Positions 20,644-26,826 of a stretch of 64,000 nt of DNA are shown one piece after another; position 1 is the stretch's first letter; each line of letters opens with the position of its first letter. This stretch comes from Hyalangium gracile (GTDB taxonomy: Bacteria; Myxococcota; Myxococcia; Myxococcales; Myxococcaceae): positions 186,001 to 250,000 of the forward strand of contig NZ_JAHXBG010000007.1 in assembly GCF_020103725.1 (NCBI RefSeq), written 5' to 3'. The notes beneath the pieces were generated by a model. It made no database searches. It saw nothing but the letters and a program-made list of their open reading frames with translations, and was not told the origin of the DNA. Made by a program: the position numbers and the translations under genes.

Positions 20644-20903
20644 GCGGAGGATCACCCGGGCCTGCGCGCGTGTCCCGCGAAGGCCGGCGGCAGCATGTCA
20701 TGGGGCGCGGCGGGCGGGAACCAGGACGAACGCTCTTCTCGGGGGCCTGGAATGATCGACCGGAAGGGAACGGAGCCAGCAAGCGACGCGCGCGCAGGAT
20801 CGGAGCCCGTGTAGTTGACGAACACCCCGGCGAGCCACAGGGCCAGCTCTCCGACAGTCGAAGTTACCGGTGTAGCCGCCAGTCGTCCTTTTCGGGGAAT
20901 AGG

Positions 20904-20923
20904 CGCACGGCGCATACCGTGCG
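20904..20923 (-). terminator. Hairpin after the six-gene operon
   Basis: A perfect 7-bp stem, CGCACGG and CCGTGCG, with a 6-base loop lies 8 bases past the stop codon of the last operon gene. On the minus strand it is followed by CCTATTCC, a weak T-run. Its position suggests a transcription terminator for the 26672-20932 operon. Confidence 0.5.
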
Positions 20924-20931
20924 TCATTCCG

Positions 20932-21540
20932 TCACGCCGCCACGAGCGCCTTGCGGTGCAGGGCCACCCAGAAGTCCGCGGCCGTCCGCGCGCCTTCGAA
21001 GAGGGGCTCGGGCTCTTCTCCGGCGATGCGCGCGCAGAGCTCTCGGGCGCGGGCGCCGTGCTCCAGGTCGGCGTCGAGGTGGACGAGCAGGAAGCGCGCC
21101 TGGCTCCGCTGCAGCCCGAGGCGGCCTAGCGCCTCGCGCGTCTCCCGCTGGAGGTGGTGGGCCACGCCCTCCAGGACGATGAGCGCGCCCAGGAACGCGA
21201 GCTGCCGCTGCGCGGGGATGCTCTCCCAGAAGGTGTGGAAGGCGGACACCTCGCGGGGCACGTCGGGAGAAGGCGTGCGCCCGAACGCGGCGAGGTCCGC
21301 CCTGGCCAGGCGGTAGTGCTCCTGCTCCTCGCGTGCGAGCTCCTGGAAGAAGGCCTTGAGCTCGGGGTGCGTGGCGCGCTCGGCCGCGAGCCGGAGCCGG
21401 TCCCCGCTCCTCGAGGTGTAGTGGTACATCATGTCCAGGAAGGCCACGTACCGCTCGGGCGTCACGGCGGGCAGCCAGCTCTGGACCTGCCGCGCCATCA
21501 CGGCGGTCACTTCCTCCAGCGCATCCATCATGGGGGACAT
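20932..21540 (-). CDS. Heme-oxygenase-like (iron-containing redox / HDO-type) metalloenzyme
   Basis: A 202-residue all-helical protein. Candidate metal ligands appear in the order used by heme-oxygenase-like diiron oxidases and related PqqC/TenA-fold proteins: E72xxH75 (EEQEH), E124 (VLEGVAHH) and H154xxxD158xxH161 (VHLDADLEH). Enzymes of this fold oxidise fatty acids, amino acids or amines with O2. The reaction here is unknown, but the operon suggests a lipid or acyl-amide substrate. The start is secure: GGAGGAAG lies just before the ATG at 21540, which is 2 bases after the CapA-like stop. It is the last gene of the six-gene operon. A hydrolase-like TenA role is less likely because the cysteine active site is missing. 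Confidence 0.75.
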   Translation of the reverse strand: MSPMMDALEEVTAVMARQVQSWLPAVTPERYVAFLDMMYHYTSRSGDRLRLAAERATHPELKAFFQELAREEQEHYRLARADLAAFGRTPSPDVPREVSAFHTFWESIPAQRQLAFLGALIVLEGVAHHLQRETREALGRLGLQRSQARFLLVHLDADLEHGARARELCARIAGEEPEPLFEGARTAADFWVALHRKALVAA

Positions 21541-21542
21541 GC

Positions 21543-22775
21543 TCACTTCCTCCGGCCAGCAATCATCAGGGGCTCCAGGGTCCGGCGGGCGTGCGCGAGG
21601 TGGTGCGCGGCCCGCTCCGGCTCCAGCTCGTCCAGCGTCATCACGCCCGCGTCGAGGAACGCCGCGCCGCCCAGCCCTCGCCCGCACGCGGTAGGCACTG
21701 CGCGCACGTCCCTGGGCTGGAGCTGGCCGCGCGCATCCCGGGACAGCGAGAGCTGGAGCACGGCGCCGGTCTGACAGGCCCGCGTGGGCATGATGCTCAG
21801 GAAGTTCCCGAGCGACCAGGCGATGAGGCCGATGCGAGGCGCTCCCTCGCGGCGCAGCTGCGTGGGGCACCAGGGGTCCGCGCCATTGATGGAGACGAGC
21901 TCGACGGGCTGGAGCACGTGGGGCGACGTGCCCAGGATGATGTCCGCGCCGCGCTCGATGAGCCGATAGGCGTGCTGACGCTGGAGGGCCTCGGGCCAGT
22001 ACTCGTACTCGAAGCCCCAGTGGGGCATGAGCACCACGAGGTCTGGCCCCGCGGCGCGTGCGGCGTCGATGAGGGCGCCCAGCCGTTCCCAGTCTGGCTC
22101 GTGCCGGGGGCTTCCGAAGCGCGTGACGGGCACACCCGCGGGAGGGGCTCCGGAGAGGTGGTTGATGTCATACGTCACCGCGGCGATGCCCATCCGCACG
22201 CCGGAGACCTCCAGCGAGGCCACGGCCTGCGAGGCCTCCGGGCCGCCCACGCAGCGATGCTCCGGGCGGGCCAGCACGGCGCGGCGGGTCTGCTCCAGTC
22301 CGTCCAGGCCCTGATCGAGCGCGTGGTTGTTGCAGAGCGAGAAGACCCGGTGGCGCGCCGTGCCCTCCCAGGCGTCGAGGTACTCGGGTGGGGCGTTGTA
22401 GTGGAGCGTCTCGTAGACCCAGCGGGGCACGGGGCGGGAGGCAGCCACGGGCGTCTCCAGGTTGGCGAAGGCCACGTCGGCGTCCGCCAGCACGGCCCGG
22501 ACGCCGGGCGAGAGCGCCTGACGGAAGCCGCTGCGGATCCACATCACGTCTCCCACGGCACACAGCGAGAGCGCCTGGGGCTCGGTGTGCCTCCAGGTGT
22601 CCGAGGCGAGGTGGCGGGCCACGCTGGCGAAGTGCTCCGCATCCTCCGCCAGCCGCGGCTCCGGTACGTGGAGCAGGCTCTTGGTGATGTAGCGGAGGTT
22701 GAGATCCCAGCGCGAGAGCGGCCAGCGACCGTCCTCGTAGCGGATGTCCGTGTACAGGTGGCGGAGGGCGCTCAT
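21543..22775 (-). CDS. CapA family (PgsA-like) metallophosphoesterase-fold protein
   Basis: A 410-residue protein. An N-terminal region of about 65 residues (MSALRHLYTDIRYEDGRWPL) precedes a CapA/PgsA-type domain starting at LSLCAVGDVMW. It contains AFANLETPV, SLCNNHALDQG (the NNH metal/phosphate motif), VVLMPHWGFEYEYWP, GTSPHVLQPVELV and AWSLGNFLS. CapA proteins act in poly-gamma-glutamate synthesis and related pathways and share the calcineurin-like phosphoesterase fold. No signal peptide or membrane anchor is visible, unlike typical CapA, so it may act in the cytoplasm. Its ATG overlaps the desaturase stop (ATGA), showing translational coupling inside the six-gene operon. Substrate unknown. 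Confidence 0.85.
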   Translation of the reverse strand: MSALRHLYTDIRYEDGRWPLSRWDLNLRYITKSLLHVPEPRLAEDAEHFASVARHLASDTWRHTEPQALSLCAVGDVMWIRSGFRQALSPGVRAVLADADVAFANLETPVAASRPVPRWVYETLHYNAPPEYLDAWEGTARHRVFSLCNNHALDQGLDGLEQTRRAVLARPEHRCVGGPEASQAVASLEVSGVRMGIAAVTYDINHLSGAPPAGVPVTRFGSPRHEPDWERLGALIDAARAAGPDLVVLMPHWGFEYEYWPEALQRQHAYRLIERGADIILGTSPHVLQPVELVSINGADPWCPTQLRREGAPRIGLIAWSLGNFLSIMPTRACQTGAVLQLSLSRDARGQLQPRDVRAVPTACGRGLGGAAFLDAGVMTLDELEPERAAHHLAHARRTLEPLMIAGRRK

Positions 22776-23752
22776 GGGCTCTTTCGCTCCAGGGTGACCA
22801 GGCGGACGTCCTCGTCCACGAGGGAGGGACCGGCGCGCAGGGCTCGCCACATGACCTGGAGGTAGCTGTCGAAGACGCAGGCGCCGTGCGCGAGGAGCAC
22901 CGGCCGGATGCGCGCATGGAGCCGTGCGAGGTTGTAGCCCGGCACGCGCGGGAAGAGGTGGTGGTCCAGGTGGTGGTTGAGCCCGTTCCAGAGGAAGGTG
23001 ACGAGGCGGGTGCTGCGCACGGTGGTCGCCGTGTGGAAGCGGTCTCCCCGCCAGGCATTGTCGTAGTGGTCGGCGATCGACTTGAGGCCGTTGAGCGGGC
23101 TGGCGAAGAGCACCGGCAGGAGCCAGCACTCCGCCGCCGCGCCGAGCAGCCCCTGGGACGAGAGGACCCAGAAGAGGCCCGCGTAGAAGGCGCCATAGCC
23201 CAGGAGCACTGCGGCATGTCGGCGCAGGCGGGCCGGCTCGAAGTGCTGCAGGGGATAGAGGACGTTGAAGTAGATGAGGCTGAGCGGGATGCCCAGGAAG
23301 ACGGTGGAGTAGTAGAGCGCGCTCAGTCCGAACGAGCGCCGCCCCGCGTTGTAGGCATCGGGATCCTTCTCGGTGCGGTTCCAGCGGTGGTGCGCGAGGT
23401 GGTCATGTCGCATGGGCTCGTAGGCGATGCCCACGAGCAGGCTGAGCGCGTTGCCGAAGAAGCGGTTCTGCCAGGGCTGGGGGAAGAGGTTCTCGTGCCA
23501 CGCGTCGTGGTCGAGCTGGATGAGCCCCATCACCGCGCTCCCCGCCAGCATCCACAGCGGCAGCTTCGCCCAGAGGCTGCCCACCTGGGTGATGGCCACG
23601 GCGGCCGCGATCCACAACCCCAGGTGGAGGGCGCTCATGCCCAGGGCGCGGAGGGGGCGGATCCGCAGCAACTCCACGAGCTCCGCCCGAGACAGGCCGA
23701 AACCGTGCTGCGGGGCGGCGGAGGAAGCAGTGAGGGGCGCGGTGGCGGGCAT
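22772..23752 (-). CDS. Membrane fatty-acid desaturase
   Basis: A 326-residue integral membrane enzyme with four or more hydrophobic segments and the three histidine boxes of the membrane desaturase/hydroxylase family: HDAWHE (82-87), HDHLAHH (116-122) and NHHLDHHLF near residue 267. These bind a diiron centre that inserts a double bond or hydroxyl group into an acyl chain, using O2 and electrons from ferredoxin or another carrier. No cytochrome b5 domain is fused. It is the fourth gene of the six-gene operon, 6 bases after the methyltransferase-like gene and overlapping the CapA-like gene by 4 bases. The context suggests it modifies the acyl part of the operon's product rather than bulk membrane lipid. 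Confidence 0.92.
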   Translation of the reverse strand: MPATAPLTASSAAPQHGFGLSRAELVELLRIRPLRALGMSALHLGLWIAAAVAITQVGSLWAKLPLWMLAGSAVMGLIQLDHDAWHENLFPQPWQNRFFGNALSLLVGIAYEPMRHDHLAHHRWNRTEKDPDAYNAGRRSFGLSALYYSTVFLGIPLSLIYFNVLYPLQHFEPARLRRHAAVLLGYGAFYAGLFWVLSSQGLLGAAAECWLLPVLFASPLNGLKSIADHYDNAWRGDRFHTATTVRSTRLVTFLWNGLNHHLDHHLFPRVPGYNLARLHARIRPVLLAHGACVFDSYLQVMWRALRAGPSLVDEDVRLVTLERKSP

Positions 23753-23758
23753 GGCAAA

Positions 23759-24370
23759 TCAGAGGTAGCGGGGCACTCGCAGGAGGTAGCGCGCGTAGCT
23801 CTCGCCGAGGCGCGCCGCGAGGTAGCGCTCCTCCTGGAGCACCAGCGCATGGAACAGCGCTCCCAGGCCGGCGAGCGACGCGAGGGTGAGGAGCGAGGGA
23901 GCCCAGAGCGAGGCGCCCACGAGGTAGAGGTAGGAGAACACGTAGATCGGGTTGCGGGAGTACCGGTGGAGCCCGCGCTCGTGCAGGACAGGCGGCTGCT
24001 CGCCCGCGTCGACGCCGATCCGGAACGCCGCGCCCATGCCGTACTGGGCGGACAGCATCCCGATGAGCCCCACTCCGCCCAGGACCCAGCCGGCGATTGG
24101 CGGGACGGAGAAGAGGGGACGGCTCCAGGGCAGCGTGGACGCGCCGGGCCAGAGCGCCGCCATGACGACGGAGCCCGCCCAGAGCAGGGAGACGCCGCTG
24201 ATGAGCCGCGTGACGCGCGCATGCGAGGGATCGGCCGCCGTGCTCCGGTACGCCAGGGGGCTTCGTCCGAAGCGCAGGCGATAGAGGAGGCTCGAGCCCA
24301 GGTGCCCCAGCAGCAGGTGGAGCGAGATGAAGCCCAGGTAGAGCCCGGGCGCCTCGGCGATTGTCCTCAT
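23759..24370 (-). CDS. Isoprenylcysteine carboxyl methyltransferase / phospholipid methyltransferase-like membrane protein
   Basis: A 203-residue protein with about five membrane helices. The C-terminal half has the family's cofactor region: HERGLHRYSRNPIYVFSYLY followed by EERYLAARLGESYARYLLRVPRYL (the E-x2-L-x4-G-x2-Y-x2-Y motif). Eukaryotic ICMT methylates a prenylated cysteine; bacterial members mostly methylate small amphipathic molecules or have unknown substrates. Here the likely role is methylation of a carboxylate or amine on a lipid-like operon product. Its ATG overlaps the stop of the condensation-type gene by 4 bases (ATGA). Confidence 0.82.
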   Translation of the reverse strand: MRTIAEAPGLYLGFISLHLLLGHLGSSLLYRLRFGRSPLAYRSTAADPSHARVTRLISGVSLLWAGSVVMAALWPGASTLPWSRPLFSVPPIAGWVLGGVGLIGMLSAQYGMGAAFRIGVDAGEQPPVLHERGLHRYSRNPIYVFSYLYLVGASLWAPSLLTLASLAGLGALFHALVLQEERYLAARLGESYARYLLRVPRYL

Positions 24371-25641
24371 GGCCCGACCACCTCCGCCGTCAGGCCAAAG
24401 GCCGAGCAGGCCCAGTCGGCCAGGCGCCGGGTGAAGTCGCGCAGCTCGCTGGCGCTCCAGAGCCCCTCGAACGTCGCCGGGTTGATGCAGAGCGTCTCCT
24501 GGAAGGTGAAGCCGGTGGCTCCCCACGTGGGCGTATGGCTGCGCAGGGAGCGGATGCGCAGCGGCGCTCCGATGAAGTGGCGGTCCAGCCGTCCCATATA
24601 GGTGGTCACCAGCGTGTTGGTTCGCGGCTCGGCGATGAGCCCGGGGCGCGCGTTCTTCCGGAGCACCCGGCCCGGGGCCACCCGAGCCACCGCCATGCAC
24701 TCGAGCGCCGTGGCCCAGTGGACGCCGGTGTCGAGCACCCGCTGGATCTCCGAGCGCACCCACCGGACGAGCCCGGGAGGATCCTCCAGCCGCGCGTGCA
24801 CCTCTGGGAAGGGCAGCTCGATGGGAACGGCGGAGCAGCCGTTGCCCAGGGTGCGCCCGAGCCCCAGCTCCCGCCGCAGGTCCACGGGCATGCGCAGGCG
24901 GATCATCCCGTCTCTCGGGGGCTCGCGCAGGGCTACGGCCGCGAGCAGGGCGGCGAAGAAGACATCGGAGGCGGAGAGGTCCGGTCGCTCGGCAGGCAGC
25001 CGCAACCGCGCCGTGGCCATGAGCGAGCGTCCCGCGACATCCCCGCTGCGACGCAGCCCCAGCCCGCGCATCGCCAGCAGCCGGTGGCGAGGGCTCGCGA
25101 CGGCGAGGCTCTGGCCGGGCCGGCTCAGCGCGGCCTGGAGGACCTTGCCATCGGTGAGCGTCGATGCCGCCAGGGGTGGGGCCTCCGCTCCTCTGCCCGC
25201 GCACAGCCCCCAGAGCCGCTCGAGCAGGTGCCCGAGCGCCTTGGCGTCGCCAATGGCGTGGTGGAGCTGGATCGCCAGCATCCAGGGGCCCTGGGCGGCA
25301 TCGGCCATGGGGTGCAGGTGCAGCCGCAGGGGCAGGTCTCGCGAGAGGTCCATCCGCGCGTTGATGACGCGCGCCACGGCCCCCGGCTCCTCCAGCGGCT
25401 CGGAGCCTTCGAGCAGCGCCGCGTTCGCGTCTTCGTCGGAGCGAGGCACGGGGAGCCACTCACACCGGGCATCGTTCCATCCGACTCGGAGGCGCGGGTT
25501 CTCGCGCACCAGCGCGCGCAGGCCTCGCCGCAGGGTGGCCACGTCGGGGCGCTCGTCGAGGCGCAGCAGCACCGTGGCCCAGATCGTCGCCACCTCGCCA
25601 TCCAGGCGGGCCATCAGCGTGTCTACGAAGTTCGCGCGCAT
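24367..25641 (-). CDS. Condensation-domain-like / wax-ester-synthase-like acyltransferase
   Basis: A 424-residue cytoplasmic protein of the CoA-dependent acyltransferase superfamily (condensation, PapA and WS/DGAT-like). The catalytic motif HHxxxD appears as LHHAIGDAKALGHLL (H127, H128, D132). The N-terminal LRRGLRALVRENPRLRVGW segment and the later RMPVDLRRELGLGRTLGNGCSA are typical of PapA/condensation proteins, and the structural DFGWG-like element is replaced near the C-terminus. It should join an acyl group to an amine or hydroxyl. It stands alone without carrier or adenylation domains. It overlaps the GNAT-like gene upstream by 19 bases and the methyltransferase-like gene downstream by 4 bases. 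Confidence 0.83.
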   Translation of the reverse strand: MRANFVDTLMARLDGEVATIWATVLLRLDERPDVATLRRGLRALVRENPRLRVGWNDARCEWLPVPRSDEDANAALLEGSEPLEEPGAVARVINARMDLSRDLPLRLHLHPMADAAQGPWMLAIQLHHAIGDAKALGHLLERLWGLCAGRGAEAPPLAASTLTDGKVLQAALSRPGQSLAVASPRHRLLAMRGLGLRRSGDVAGRSLMATARLRLPAERPDLSASDVFFAALLAAVALREPPRDGMIRLRMPVDLRRELGLGRTLGNGCSAVPIELPFPEVHARLEDPPGLVRWVRSEIQRVLDTGVHWATALECMAVARVAPGRVLRKNARPGLIAEPRTNTLVTTYMGRLDRHFIGAPLRIRSLRSHTPTWGATGFTFQETLCINPATFEGLWSASELRDFTRRLADWACSAFGLTAEVVGP

Positions 25642-26672
25642 CGCTCGATCCAGCCGGCAAAGAGGGCCTGGGAGTCCTTCCCCGCGAGCCGTGCGCGGCC
25701 CAGTGCCTCGCAGGCGGCCTTCACGTCTCCCACGTGCTGGAAGACGAGCTCGTCGGGCGCTTCCTGGTGCAGGCGGATGCCGGTCGGGCGGTAGCCCGCG
25801 GCGAGCAGGACGGGCGTGGCCTCGGCCACATGTCGCGCATCGCCCATCGAGAGGTGGAGGAGGTCCACACGGGCCCGAGCGGACAGCAGGGTCGGCTCAC
25901 CCTCCTCGGGGCCCGACGTTCGGACGAGCTCTCGCCGCTCGATGCGCAGGGACTCATTCCAGTCGATCGGCCGCAGGACATGGCGCACGGGGCGAGCACG
26001 AGGCTCGGCGGGGACGAGGACGACGGATCCCGACAGTCCCACGCCCGCGAGGATGGACCGCAGCCACTCTCCCCAGCAGCCCTCGGGCAGGTAGCGCGTG
26101 CGGGGAGGCAGCGGCCCGAGCACGGTCGTCATCTCCAGCGCCTGCATCGGGAGGCCAGAGCCCTCCACGCCGATCAGCGTCTCGCCGCGCGTGTAGTGGA
26201 CGATGAGCCCCACGGGCACGGCACTCATGATGCGCGCGGCGTACCGCTGGGCCATCAGGTGCAGGGTGGAGGTGTGCTGGTGCACGAAGCCGACGTGGCC
26301 CCTCAGTCGCTCCAGGAGGTAGCGCCACATGCGCGCGTGCTCATCCCGGTCCATGGCCGTGCGCAGGGTGGGGTGGGTGAGGGAGAGCCCCGAGTCCACC
26401 GAGTCCCTCCCCGGCGCCGTCCACAGCCCGGTGTGCGAGACGATCGCTCCCTGGGCGTTCAGCTCCCCCAGGCTCAGCAGCCGACCCGAGCGCCACAGGC
26501 GCGAGGCGCCTCCGGGCTCATAGAGGACGGGGTAGGAGTACGTATCGCCGTAGCGAGCGTGGAGCAGCTCGCGGAAGGCGGGCTCCTCGGACTCGCTCAG
26601 CCAGCGGGAGTGCTCGGTGGGCGCGGCGGAGCGGAGGTCGTCAACCAGGGAGGCGGTGCAGTCTCGGCCCAT
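25623..26672 (-). CDS. GNAT-like acyltransferase, first gene of the six-gene operon
   Basis: A 349-residue protein. The N-terminal half looks like a GNAT fold: RELLHARYGDTYSYPVLYEPG, GRLLSLGELNAQGAIVSHTGLW (beta strands before the acyl-CoA loop) and ARMWRYLLERLRGHVGFVHQHTST. The C-terminal half repeats a similar pattern more loosely (RVDLLHLSMGDARHVAEATPVLLAAGYRPTG), so it may be a double-GNAT protein. No signal peptide. The natural role is probably acyl transfer to an amine. I cannot name the subfamily. The ATG at 26672 was used; a TTG four codons upstream, 3 bases after GAGGT, is the alternative. The overlap with the next gene is 19 bases. Confidence 0.72.
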   Translation of the reverse strand: MGRDCTASLVDDLRSAAPTEHSRWLSESEEPAFRELLHARYGDTYSYPVLYEPGGASRLWRSGRLLSLGELNAQGAIVSHTGLWTAPGRDSVDSGLSLTHPTLRTAMDRDEHARMWRYLLERLRGHVGFVHQHTSTLHLMAQRYAARIMSAVPVGLIVHYTRGETLIGVEGSGLPMQALEMTTVLGPLPPRTRYLPEGCWGEWLRSILAGVGLSGSVVLVPAEPRARPVRHVLRPIDWNESLRIERRELVRTSGPEEGEPTLLSARARVDLLHLSMGDARHVAEATPVLLAAGYRPTGIRLHQEAPDELVFQHVGDVKAACEALGRARLAGKDSQALFAGWIERCARTS

Positions 26673-26826
26673 GCCCTGGGGCAATGCACCTCAGGGGCCA
26701 GCGCGGAAGTCCGCGACGTCCCGTTCCTGCTCGGGGCAGGGACGTGCAGCCCTGCTCGCAGGTGTGCCACCGAGTGCACGCAGGCTCCCGAGTAGCTGCA
26801 CACGGAACCAGCGCCTTTGGGAAGGC

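Follow-up and report, generated by a model that had tools for sequence, protein, structure and literature searches.

Organisation of the operon and its products

In a 64,000-nucleotide stretch of the Hyalangium gracile genome (contig NZ_JAHXBG010000007.1, positions 186,001 to 250,000; hereafter the window), the minus strand carries six tightly packed open reading frames at 26672-20932 that, together with their own upstream region, occupy less than 6 kb (Table 1). From gene 1 to gene 6 the frames are joined by a 19-base overlap, a 4-base ATGA overlap, a 6-base gap, a second ATGA overlap and a 2-base gap, exactly as a first-pass annotation of this DNA had described them. The overlaps of genes 1/2, 2/3 and 4/5 are base-identical in all 24 complete loci compared (window included), and the 41 motif residues checked across the operon are invariant in the same loci; the HHxxxD, three-histidine-box and ExxH...E...HxxxDxxH motifs that the annotation had pointed out are all present and unchanged in them. 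Motif names follow general knowledge of the families, except for the metal ligands of gene 6.

Table 1. Features of the six-gene operon and of a control gene; coordinates refer to the window unless a locus is named.
Feature	Coordinates	Strand	Length	Description
Gene 1	26672-25623	minus	349 amino acids	Family without Pfam or NCBIfam match
Gene 2	25641-24367	minus	424 amino acids	Putative free-standing condensation-fold (CAT superfamily) acyltransferase, HHxxxD
Gene 3	24370-23759	minus	203 amino acids	Membrane methyltransferase of PEMT/isoprenylcysteine carboxyl methyltransferase (ICMT) type
Gene 4	23752-22772	minus	326 amino acids	Membrane diiron desaturase/hydroxylase of the fatty-acid-desaturase superfamily, three His boxes
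Gene 5	22775-21543	minus	410 amino acids	CapA/PGA_cap-type metallophosphoesterase-like enzyme
Gene 6	21540-20932	minus	202 amino acids	Predicted haem-oxygenase-like diiron oxidase (HDO)
Upstream region	26673..26802	minus		From TGTGCA element to start codon; travels with the operon
Hairpin after gene 6	20896..20930	minus		Outside the conserved unit
CmlA-like diiron beta-hydroxylase gene	L045:10948-12786			Beside the cassette of genome G018; further loci L149-L162

Genes 4 and 5 are assigned to their families by wide margins. Gene 4 scored 122.8 bits against FA_desaturase (PF00487; cut-off 29.7) and keeps the eight histidines of its three boxes in 24 of 24 loci, in keeping with its first description as a fatty-acid desaturase; gene 5, described as CapA-like, scored 153.9 bits against PGA_cap (PF09587; cut-off 27), with the 14 residues of its GD, NLE, NNH, HWGxE, PH and GNF motifs equally invariant and with poly-gamma-glutamate synthesis proteins as its relatives in the PDB. 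At the NCBIfam level, where all matches lay far below the curated cut-offs and serve as leads only, the models nearest to gene 4 were the arginine hydroxylase GntB (42.8 bits; equivalog cut-off 380), CrtR (41.6), DesA (39) and CrtW (30.3), and the sole match of gene 5 was the lasso-peptide epimerase MslH (34.2 bits; equivalog cut-off 700). Gene 3 passed the threshold of the wider PEMT family (PF04191; 36.4 bits, cut-off 25) and its RNP...EE motif residues are invariant in 24 of 24 loci, but it reached only 31.4 bits against the NCBIfam isoprenylcysteine methyltransferase model (equivalog cut-off 160), and the PDB sequence search returned only an isoprenylcysteine methyltransferase at E=0.62. 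The original label of isoprenylcysteine-methyltransferase-like thus stands at the level of the wider family, not for the isoprenylcysteine carboxyl methyltransferases proper.

Gene 6, first read as a heme-oxygenase-like metalloenzyme, scored 66.9 bits against Haem_oxygenas_2 (PF14518; cut-off 28.9), in agreement with that reading, and its metal ligands E72, H75, E124, H154, D158 and H161 are invariant in 24 of 24 loci and are kept also in three paralogues of about 30% identity. The metal ligands described for the HDO MboA are three histidines and three glutamate or aspartate residues (PMC13185094). The ligand set of gene 6 has this composition, and its sequence, with the PF14518 match, predicts an HDO with O2-dependent dimetal chemistry. 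Searching the PDB with a profile of gene 6 and its paralogues gave 15 matches at E≤10, which included CADD and a pABA synthase, with BesC and SznF as weaker matches; UndA was not among the 15.

The HHxxxD motif of gene 2 (H127, H128 and D132) is invariant in 24 of 24 loci; the motif is also found in condensation enzymes and in starter condensation (C) domains, such as RzmA, SgcC5 and VibH. A Foldseek search with the structure model of gene 2 (mean predicted local distance difference test score (pLDDT) 53.3) gave 154 PDB matches at E≤0.001 (best E=1.3 × 10−9, probability 1.00). Among the 50 of the 154 that were listed most were condensation-type domains, and the first rows, many of them tied, were RzmA starter C domains, some of them acyl-CoA-bound; superposition on the RzmA starter C domain gave a VIA Z of 10.8 with 278 aligned and a root-mean-square deviation of 11.0. 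As modelled, the fold of gene 2 is nearest to the condensation domains of non-ribosomal peptide synthetases (NRPSs). The proposal of a condensation-type acyltransferase accordingly holds for motif and modelled fold, but the score against Pfam Condensation stays under the threshold.

The name GNAT-like, given to gene 1 in the first-pass annotation, fared less well. No match was obtained for gene 1 in Pfam or NCBIfam at E≤1, and none of 12 orthologues matched Pfam at E≤10, leaving no recognisable GNAT profile in these searches. Only the structure model offers a hint: its top structural rows are GNAT proteins (Z at most 4.0, over ~75-90 residues of a model with mean pLDDT 46.6), the resembling part being residues ~226-316, which correspond to the second half of the GNAT fold, and Foldseek returned no match at E≤0.001 with this model, in which the first 186 residues are too weak. 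With low confidence, the model suggests a protein that is GNAT-like at best. Of the two acyl/amine-joining enzymes that had been proposed, gene 2 is thus retained and gene 1 lacks a recognised domain. PDB sequence searches with genes 1, 2 and 4 gave no useful match. An N-terminal extension of gene 1 to position -120, open in some loci, was rejected on account of in-frame stops in the window and in locus L045.

The upstream region contains repeated half sites resembling TGTGCA/TGCACA, and a core just before the start of gene 1 is conserved (TGGCC ... TGCATTGC). No sigma-70-type match was found in this region, which by its sequence is probably a promoter/operator; the half sites and the proximity of the core to the start codon suggest that a regulator is shared and that the leader is very short. 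At the other end, the hairpin that was said to close the set is real and folds stably (z −3.5; none of 200 shuffles was equally stable), but it has no T run, no terminator-like site was called, and the sequence past the stop codon of gene 6 is not common to the other loci compared, so the hairpin is not part of the conserved unit.

Conservation and exchange of the operon among Myxococcaceae

Gene 6 has a strong orthologue (E of 5 × 10−54 or better) in 27 of 96 genomes of Myxococcaceae, the family of the window, and only weak matches of about 30% identity in 16 further genomes of the family. Across the phylum, genes 1, 2 and 6 are strongly matched in the same 27 of 195 genomes (cut-offs E≤1 × 10−12 for gene 6, E≤1 × 10−4 for gene 1 and E≤1 × 10−5 for gene 2), with one extra, weak match of gene 2 outside these carriers (E=3.3 × 10−7, inside an open frame of 1484 amino acids). 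The profile of gene 5 found near-full-length orthologues (E≤2.5 × 10−257) in 26 of the 27 carriers, the 27th being cut by a contig end; weaker CapA-family matches are widespread (83 of 195 phylum genomes at E≤1 × 10−15), and four distant CapA-like loci outside the carriers (L189-L192) had no other gene of the operon within 1.5 kb. We compared the window with 26 loci fetched around gene 6, 27 in all. The six genes occur in the same order in 24 of the 27 carriers, and the remaining three (L053, L055 and L056) are cut by contig ends. By genus, the operon is carried by 14 of the 16 Corallococcus (g6) genomes searched and by 7 of 27, 3 of 7, 1 of 6, 1 of 4 and 1 of 1 genomes of genera g19, g1, g3, g7 and g8, respectively. 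A block of at least four genes conserved in several genera had been named as a check on the operon; all six genes, in one order and in six genera, were found. An alignment scan of 84,980 species genomes with gene 1, which relied on short exact peptide patterns and says little on very distant relatives, gave 15 loci, all of them in Myxococcaceae (Hyalangium, Corallococcus, Myxococcus/Pyxidicoccus, Archangium and one metagenome-assembled Myxococcaceae genome).

Pairwise ratios of non-synonymous to synonymous substitution rates (dN/dS) between the window and six loci ranged from 0.17 to 0.45 for all six genes, showing that the six genes are under purifying selection. The operon is no chance assembly. 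No plasmid relatives were found for genes 1 and 2, and those of genes 3, 4, 5 and 6 were single weak matches in 18, 8, 44 and 4 records, respectively; none of three annotated plasmid neighbourhoods contained the gene set. A Vibrio plasmid neighbourhood with an iron-containing redox enzyme, a methyltransferase and two GNAT genes was judged unrelated, the other families being missing. Phage origin was likewise set aside, as PHROG gave two matches only (genes 3 and 5), both to families of unknown function.

The divergence of the operon was compared with that of rpoB in the 23 genomes having both markers. Operons from different genera are up to 98.8% identical where rpoB is ~91% identical, and in an example pair from one genus the operon is only 82.5% identical with rpoB at 98.7%. 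In 44 of the 180 pairs that join different genera the operon is more alike than rpoB, but the mean identity over all such pairs is lower for the operon (85.0%) than for rpoB (91.5%). These discordances show that the operon has passed between genera of one myxobacterial family.

The boundaries of the exchanged unit are narrow. Operons are at least 94% identical in 101 of 276 locus pairs, and in these close pairs the main shared block ends a median of 14 bp after the last stop (range −7 to 252, measured from the stop codon); upstream, homology ends a median of 123 bp before gene 1 (range 52-576) in the 90 close pairs that remain when L040, whose contig ends there, is left out. The main block stays within 1 kb of the operon on both sides in all 276 pairs, and joining pieces on the same diagonal brings three pairs to 2645, 1026 and 1018 bp on one side. 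Nine flank comparisons share at least 250 bp (for example, window and L031 downstream, L041 and L043 upstream); 15 of the 24 loci have no neighbourhood in common with another, and the remaining 9 have at least one such partner. By comparison, the homology around rpoB continues for 1 kb or more in both directions in 253 of 253 pairs. We used as a second control the CmlA-like gene that lies beside the G018 cassette, at 14 other loci (L045, whose upstream side is the cassette itself, was left out): of the 91 pairs, 32 reach 90% identity or more; 24 of these can be compared over at least 1 kb on both sides, and in 22 of the 24 homology stops within 300 bp of the gene on both sides. Gene-scale reshuffling is thus common in these genomes. 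As a single gene has been relocated just as sharply, the boundaries establish a cohesive unit and not a special mobile element, and the fact that six genes stayed together despite such reshuffling is the strongest evidence for one common function. The operon is a clear example of a unit that survives while the surrounding gene order changes. Its presence in most of the Corallococcus genomes searched and its exchange with other genera indicate that carriers probably profit from the product.

Several other features of the carrier genomes were recorded. The CmlA-like case gives the impression that accessory genes of the family are reshuffled gene by gene. In genome G016, a 73-residue CapA-like fragment (C13:227410-227628) lies ~7 kb from the intact cassette and is a remnant of another copy, and in G026 (Corallococcus sp.) fragments of genes 1 and 2 from two copies lie on C338 and C568; an in-frame TGA interrupts one of the copies, and the genome may thus hold a second cassette in decay. 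Several cassettes abut remains whose translations resemble insertion-sequence genes; at L038:6020-6126 a dispersed repeat of ~100 bp ends at the left border of the G029 cassette, has further copies in several Corallococcus genomes, and gives a translation that resembles a transposase end. A large polyketide synthase (PKS) gene lies beside the cassette of G037 on the other strand (L052:11010-16499), and an AHSA1/SRPBCC-type gene (family-tested in L041) borders the cassette in L033, L034, L041 and L043, downstream and inverted in one locus and upstream in three. For G029, a single-contig genome with a completeness rating of 100%, no match to rpoB was obtained, whereas the 23 others had one; a masked stretch or an assembly oddity may be responsible.

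A proposed pathway and its alternatives

Taken together, these data lead us to favour, at a probability of about one half, a self-contained and horizontally exchanged biosynthetic operon, the product of which would most likely be an amino-acid derivative, N-acylated, oxidised and methyl-capped, that needs no NRPS or PKS module for its assembly. We are most confident in inferring that the operon encodes the enzymes of a single small-metabolite pathway, with few if any of the six products standing outside it, and confidence in the individual roles falling from gene 2 through genes 4 and 6 to gene 3 and finally gene 5. Gene 2, perhaps with gene 1, would join an acyl group from coenzyme A (CoA) or an acyl carrier protein to a free amine, such as that of an amino acid, or to an alcohol; genes 4 and 6 would oxidise the joined or free substrate by introducing double bonds or hydroxyls or by removing a carbon or nitrogen group; gene 3 may cap a carboxylate or hydroxyl with methyl at the membrane; and gene 5 may hydrolyse (trim) or epimerise an intermediate. 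The joining and oxidising roles are proposed because of the established chemistry of the families. The nearest characterised relatives (GntB, MslH, BesC/SznF/CADD and starter C domains) have mostly amino acids or peptides as substrates, and this leaning is why an amino-acid product is favoured over a lipid. Since no carrier or activating gene is found among the six, the operon must draw on host metabolism. A more specific proposal, which we advance tentatively, is that a promoter-to-stop cassette, exchanged among predatory myxobacteria as a single indivisible unit, makes an undescribed N-acylated, doubly diiron-oxidised, methyl-capped amino-acid derivative by means of a free-standing condensation enzyme and a helper of a new family.

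A number of results weigh against this interpretation. All similarities to amino-acid and peptide enzymes are weak, with the nearest-relative scores of genes 2, 4 and 5 under every specific cut-off (gene 2 scored 25.8 bits against Pfam Condensation, with a gathering score of 30.6), and the CrtR, PEMT and desaturase families point elsewhere; for gene 4, the carotenoid enzyme CrtR practically ties with GntB. No function is assigned to 3dde, the PDB entry matched best by gene 6 (E=2.5 × 10−34), gene 1 is without a family in Pfam and NCBIfam, and the models of both putative joining enzymes are poor, that of gene 2 averaging only 53.3 in pLDDT and that of gene 1 reaching some confidence only at residues ~187-317. 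By Pfam and NCBIfam, the six include neither a carrier protein nor an activating enzyme, and nothing for export, regulation or self-protection, which agrees with the first reading in its claim that carrier protein and adenylation domain are absent. In addition, the close pair L045/L046 gives dN/dS of 0.57, 0.45 and 0.62 for genes 1, 2 and 3, on few changes.

The alternative that survives best, though we hold it to be unlikely, is the lipid or lipid amide envisaged by the first-pass annotation, in which the operon would modify a membrane lipid or make a lipid amide, with genes 4 and 6 acting on the acyl chain (for example, by forming a terminal alkene as UndA does) and the methyltransferase acting on the head group. 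The FA_desaturase and PEMT families, to which two of the six enzymes were matched, have many lipid-acting members, and no amino-acid-activating domain was matched in the operon. The modelled fold of gene 2, however, is nearest to peptide-synthetase condensation domains, genes 4 and 5 are weakly nearest to GntB and MslH, and the gene 6 profile recovered CADD, pABA synthase, BesC and SznF but not UndA among its 15 PDB matches, which is weak evidence; moreover, a need of the membrane would not obviously explain a patchy, exchanged distribution.

That patchy distribution and the recent transfer would fit resistance genes equally well, raising the idea of a protective or detoxifying operon (against stress, or conferring immunity against the compound of a competitor) that is spread by transfer and is not biosynthetic. 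In the accessible part of one study, desiccation tolerance is connected with a haem-oxygenase-like protein from Acinetobacter (PMC13232832). We consider this decidedly unlikely, as the six proteins include no transporter or known resistance family, PADLOC found no anti-phage defence match among them, and six coupled enzymes with a condensation enzyme in their number look like synthesis.

It is improbable, too, that the operon is a discrete mobile element with fixed ends, its recombinase being supplied in trans, in spite of several observations that recommend the idea. The breakpoints are tightly clustered, several left ends fall at the TGTGCA motif, and a tRNA-Arg(CCT) gene is present in six of the 26 loci fetched, four times at a distance of ~300 bp or less from gene 6; L040 has tRNA-Val and tRNA-Asp genes beside gene 6, and the window contains no tRNA gene. 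The G018 cassette is bordered on one side by the terminator of a tRNA-Arg(CCT) gene and on the other by the CmlA-like gene, and the same two flanks lie 48 bp apart in G028, which carries a cassette of its own 1.6 Mb from this empty site. Such a site was seen in one of the 12 loci compared, the tRNA side not adjoining the CmlA-like gene elsewhere; none was found for the copies of G029 and of the window, whose flanks match elsewhere only as scattered pieces. Against fixed ends, no target-site duplication was recognised at the G028 site, where 48 bp are replaced, and the position of the right end varies between 7 bp before the end of the frame and 252 bp past it. Pfam, NCBIfam and PHROG found no recombinase among the six proteins. 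The text of a paper on Corallococcus genomes, searched for mobile elements, yielded a single passage, which is unrelated (PMC6306037). The equally sharp edges of the unrelated CmlA-like gene led us to lower the odds slightly further.

It is highly improbable, finally, that the cassette tailors a carotenoid or another isoprenoid by CrtR/CrtW-like oxygenation, methylation and acylation, as the CrtR and CrtW scores of gene 4 and the known occurrence of carotenoid esters in myxobacteria might suggest, since GntB scores about equally with CrtR, the CrtR and CrtW cut-offs (475 and 350 bits) are far off, the six include neither a glycosyltransferase nor a carotenoid gene, and the CapA-like and haem-oxygenase-like genes are left unexplained.

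Relation to known systems

If the proposed amino-acid derivative is indeed made, the compound class would be new and built without carrier protein, ligase or modular synthetase, by a short pathway that pairs two unrelated O2-activating diiron enzymes and includes, in gene 1, a protein foreign to Pfam and NCBIfam. The operon is without any of the modular-synthetase and other core genes on which cluster finders commonly rely. In accordance with the first reading, no named system with this gene set is described in the literature searched, which consisted largely of papers outside subscription access.

Gene by gene, likenesses to described systems can be drawn. The RzmA C domain, SgcC5 and VibH have the modelled fold of gene 2 in common; unlike them, gene 2 gives a sequence match below threshold and is accompanied by no carrier protein among the six. 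The CapA/PGA_cap family shares with gene 5 both the family match and the invariant motif residues, whereas no capsule gene is present among the six, and the MslH model gives the low score noted above.

As a whole, the operon resembles most closely in outline, among the published systems compared, the mangotoxin operon mboABCDEF, to the extent that the latter is covered in the accessible text: both are compact, comprise six genes with an HDO, and have no modular synthetase in the operon (PMC13185094, PMC3927611). The same partial sources give a tripeptide as the product of mbo and describe in the operon two ATP-grasp ligases and an arginine deiminase, along with a dedicated redox partner (PMC13185094, PMC3927611). 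The present operon has condensation-fold, membrane desaturase, CapA-like and ICMT-like enzymes instead, with no ATP-grasp match at E≤1 in Pfam or NCBIfam among its six proteins; among the functions described in those portions, MboF being outside the comparison, the two operons share only the HDO. Kinship with mangotoxin, which the literature had suggested, was rejected on the gene content described there. The hsl homospermidine-lipid cluster of Myxococcus xanthus, whose genes are given in the accessible portions as hslA-D and O-Q, is likened by product alone, its lipid-amine being of the kind that the first-pass annotation had imagined (PMC9548883, PMC12288465). Set beside these systems, the operon is probably a compact biosynthetic operon without modular synthetases, the product of which is an undescribed small molecule.

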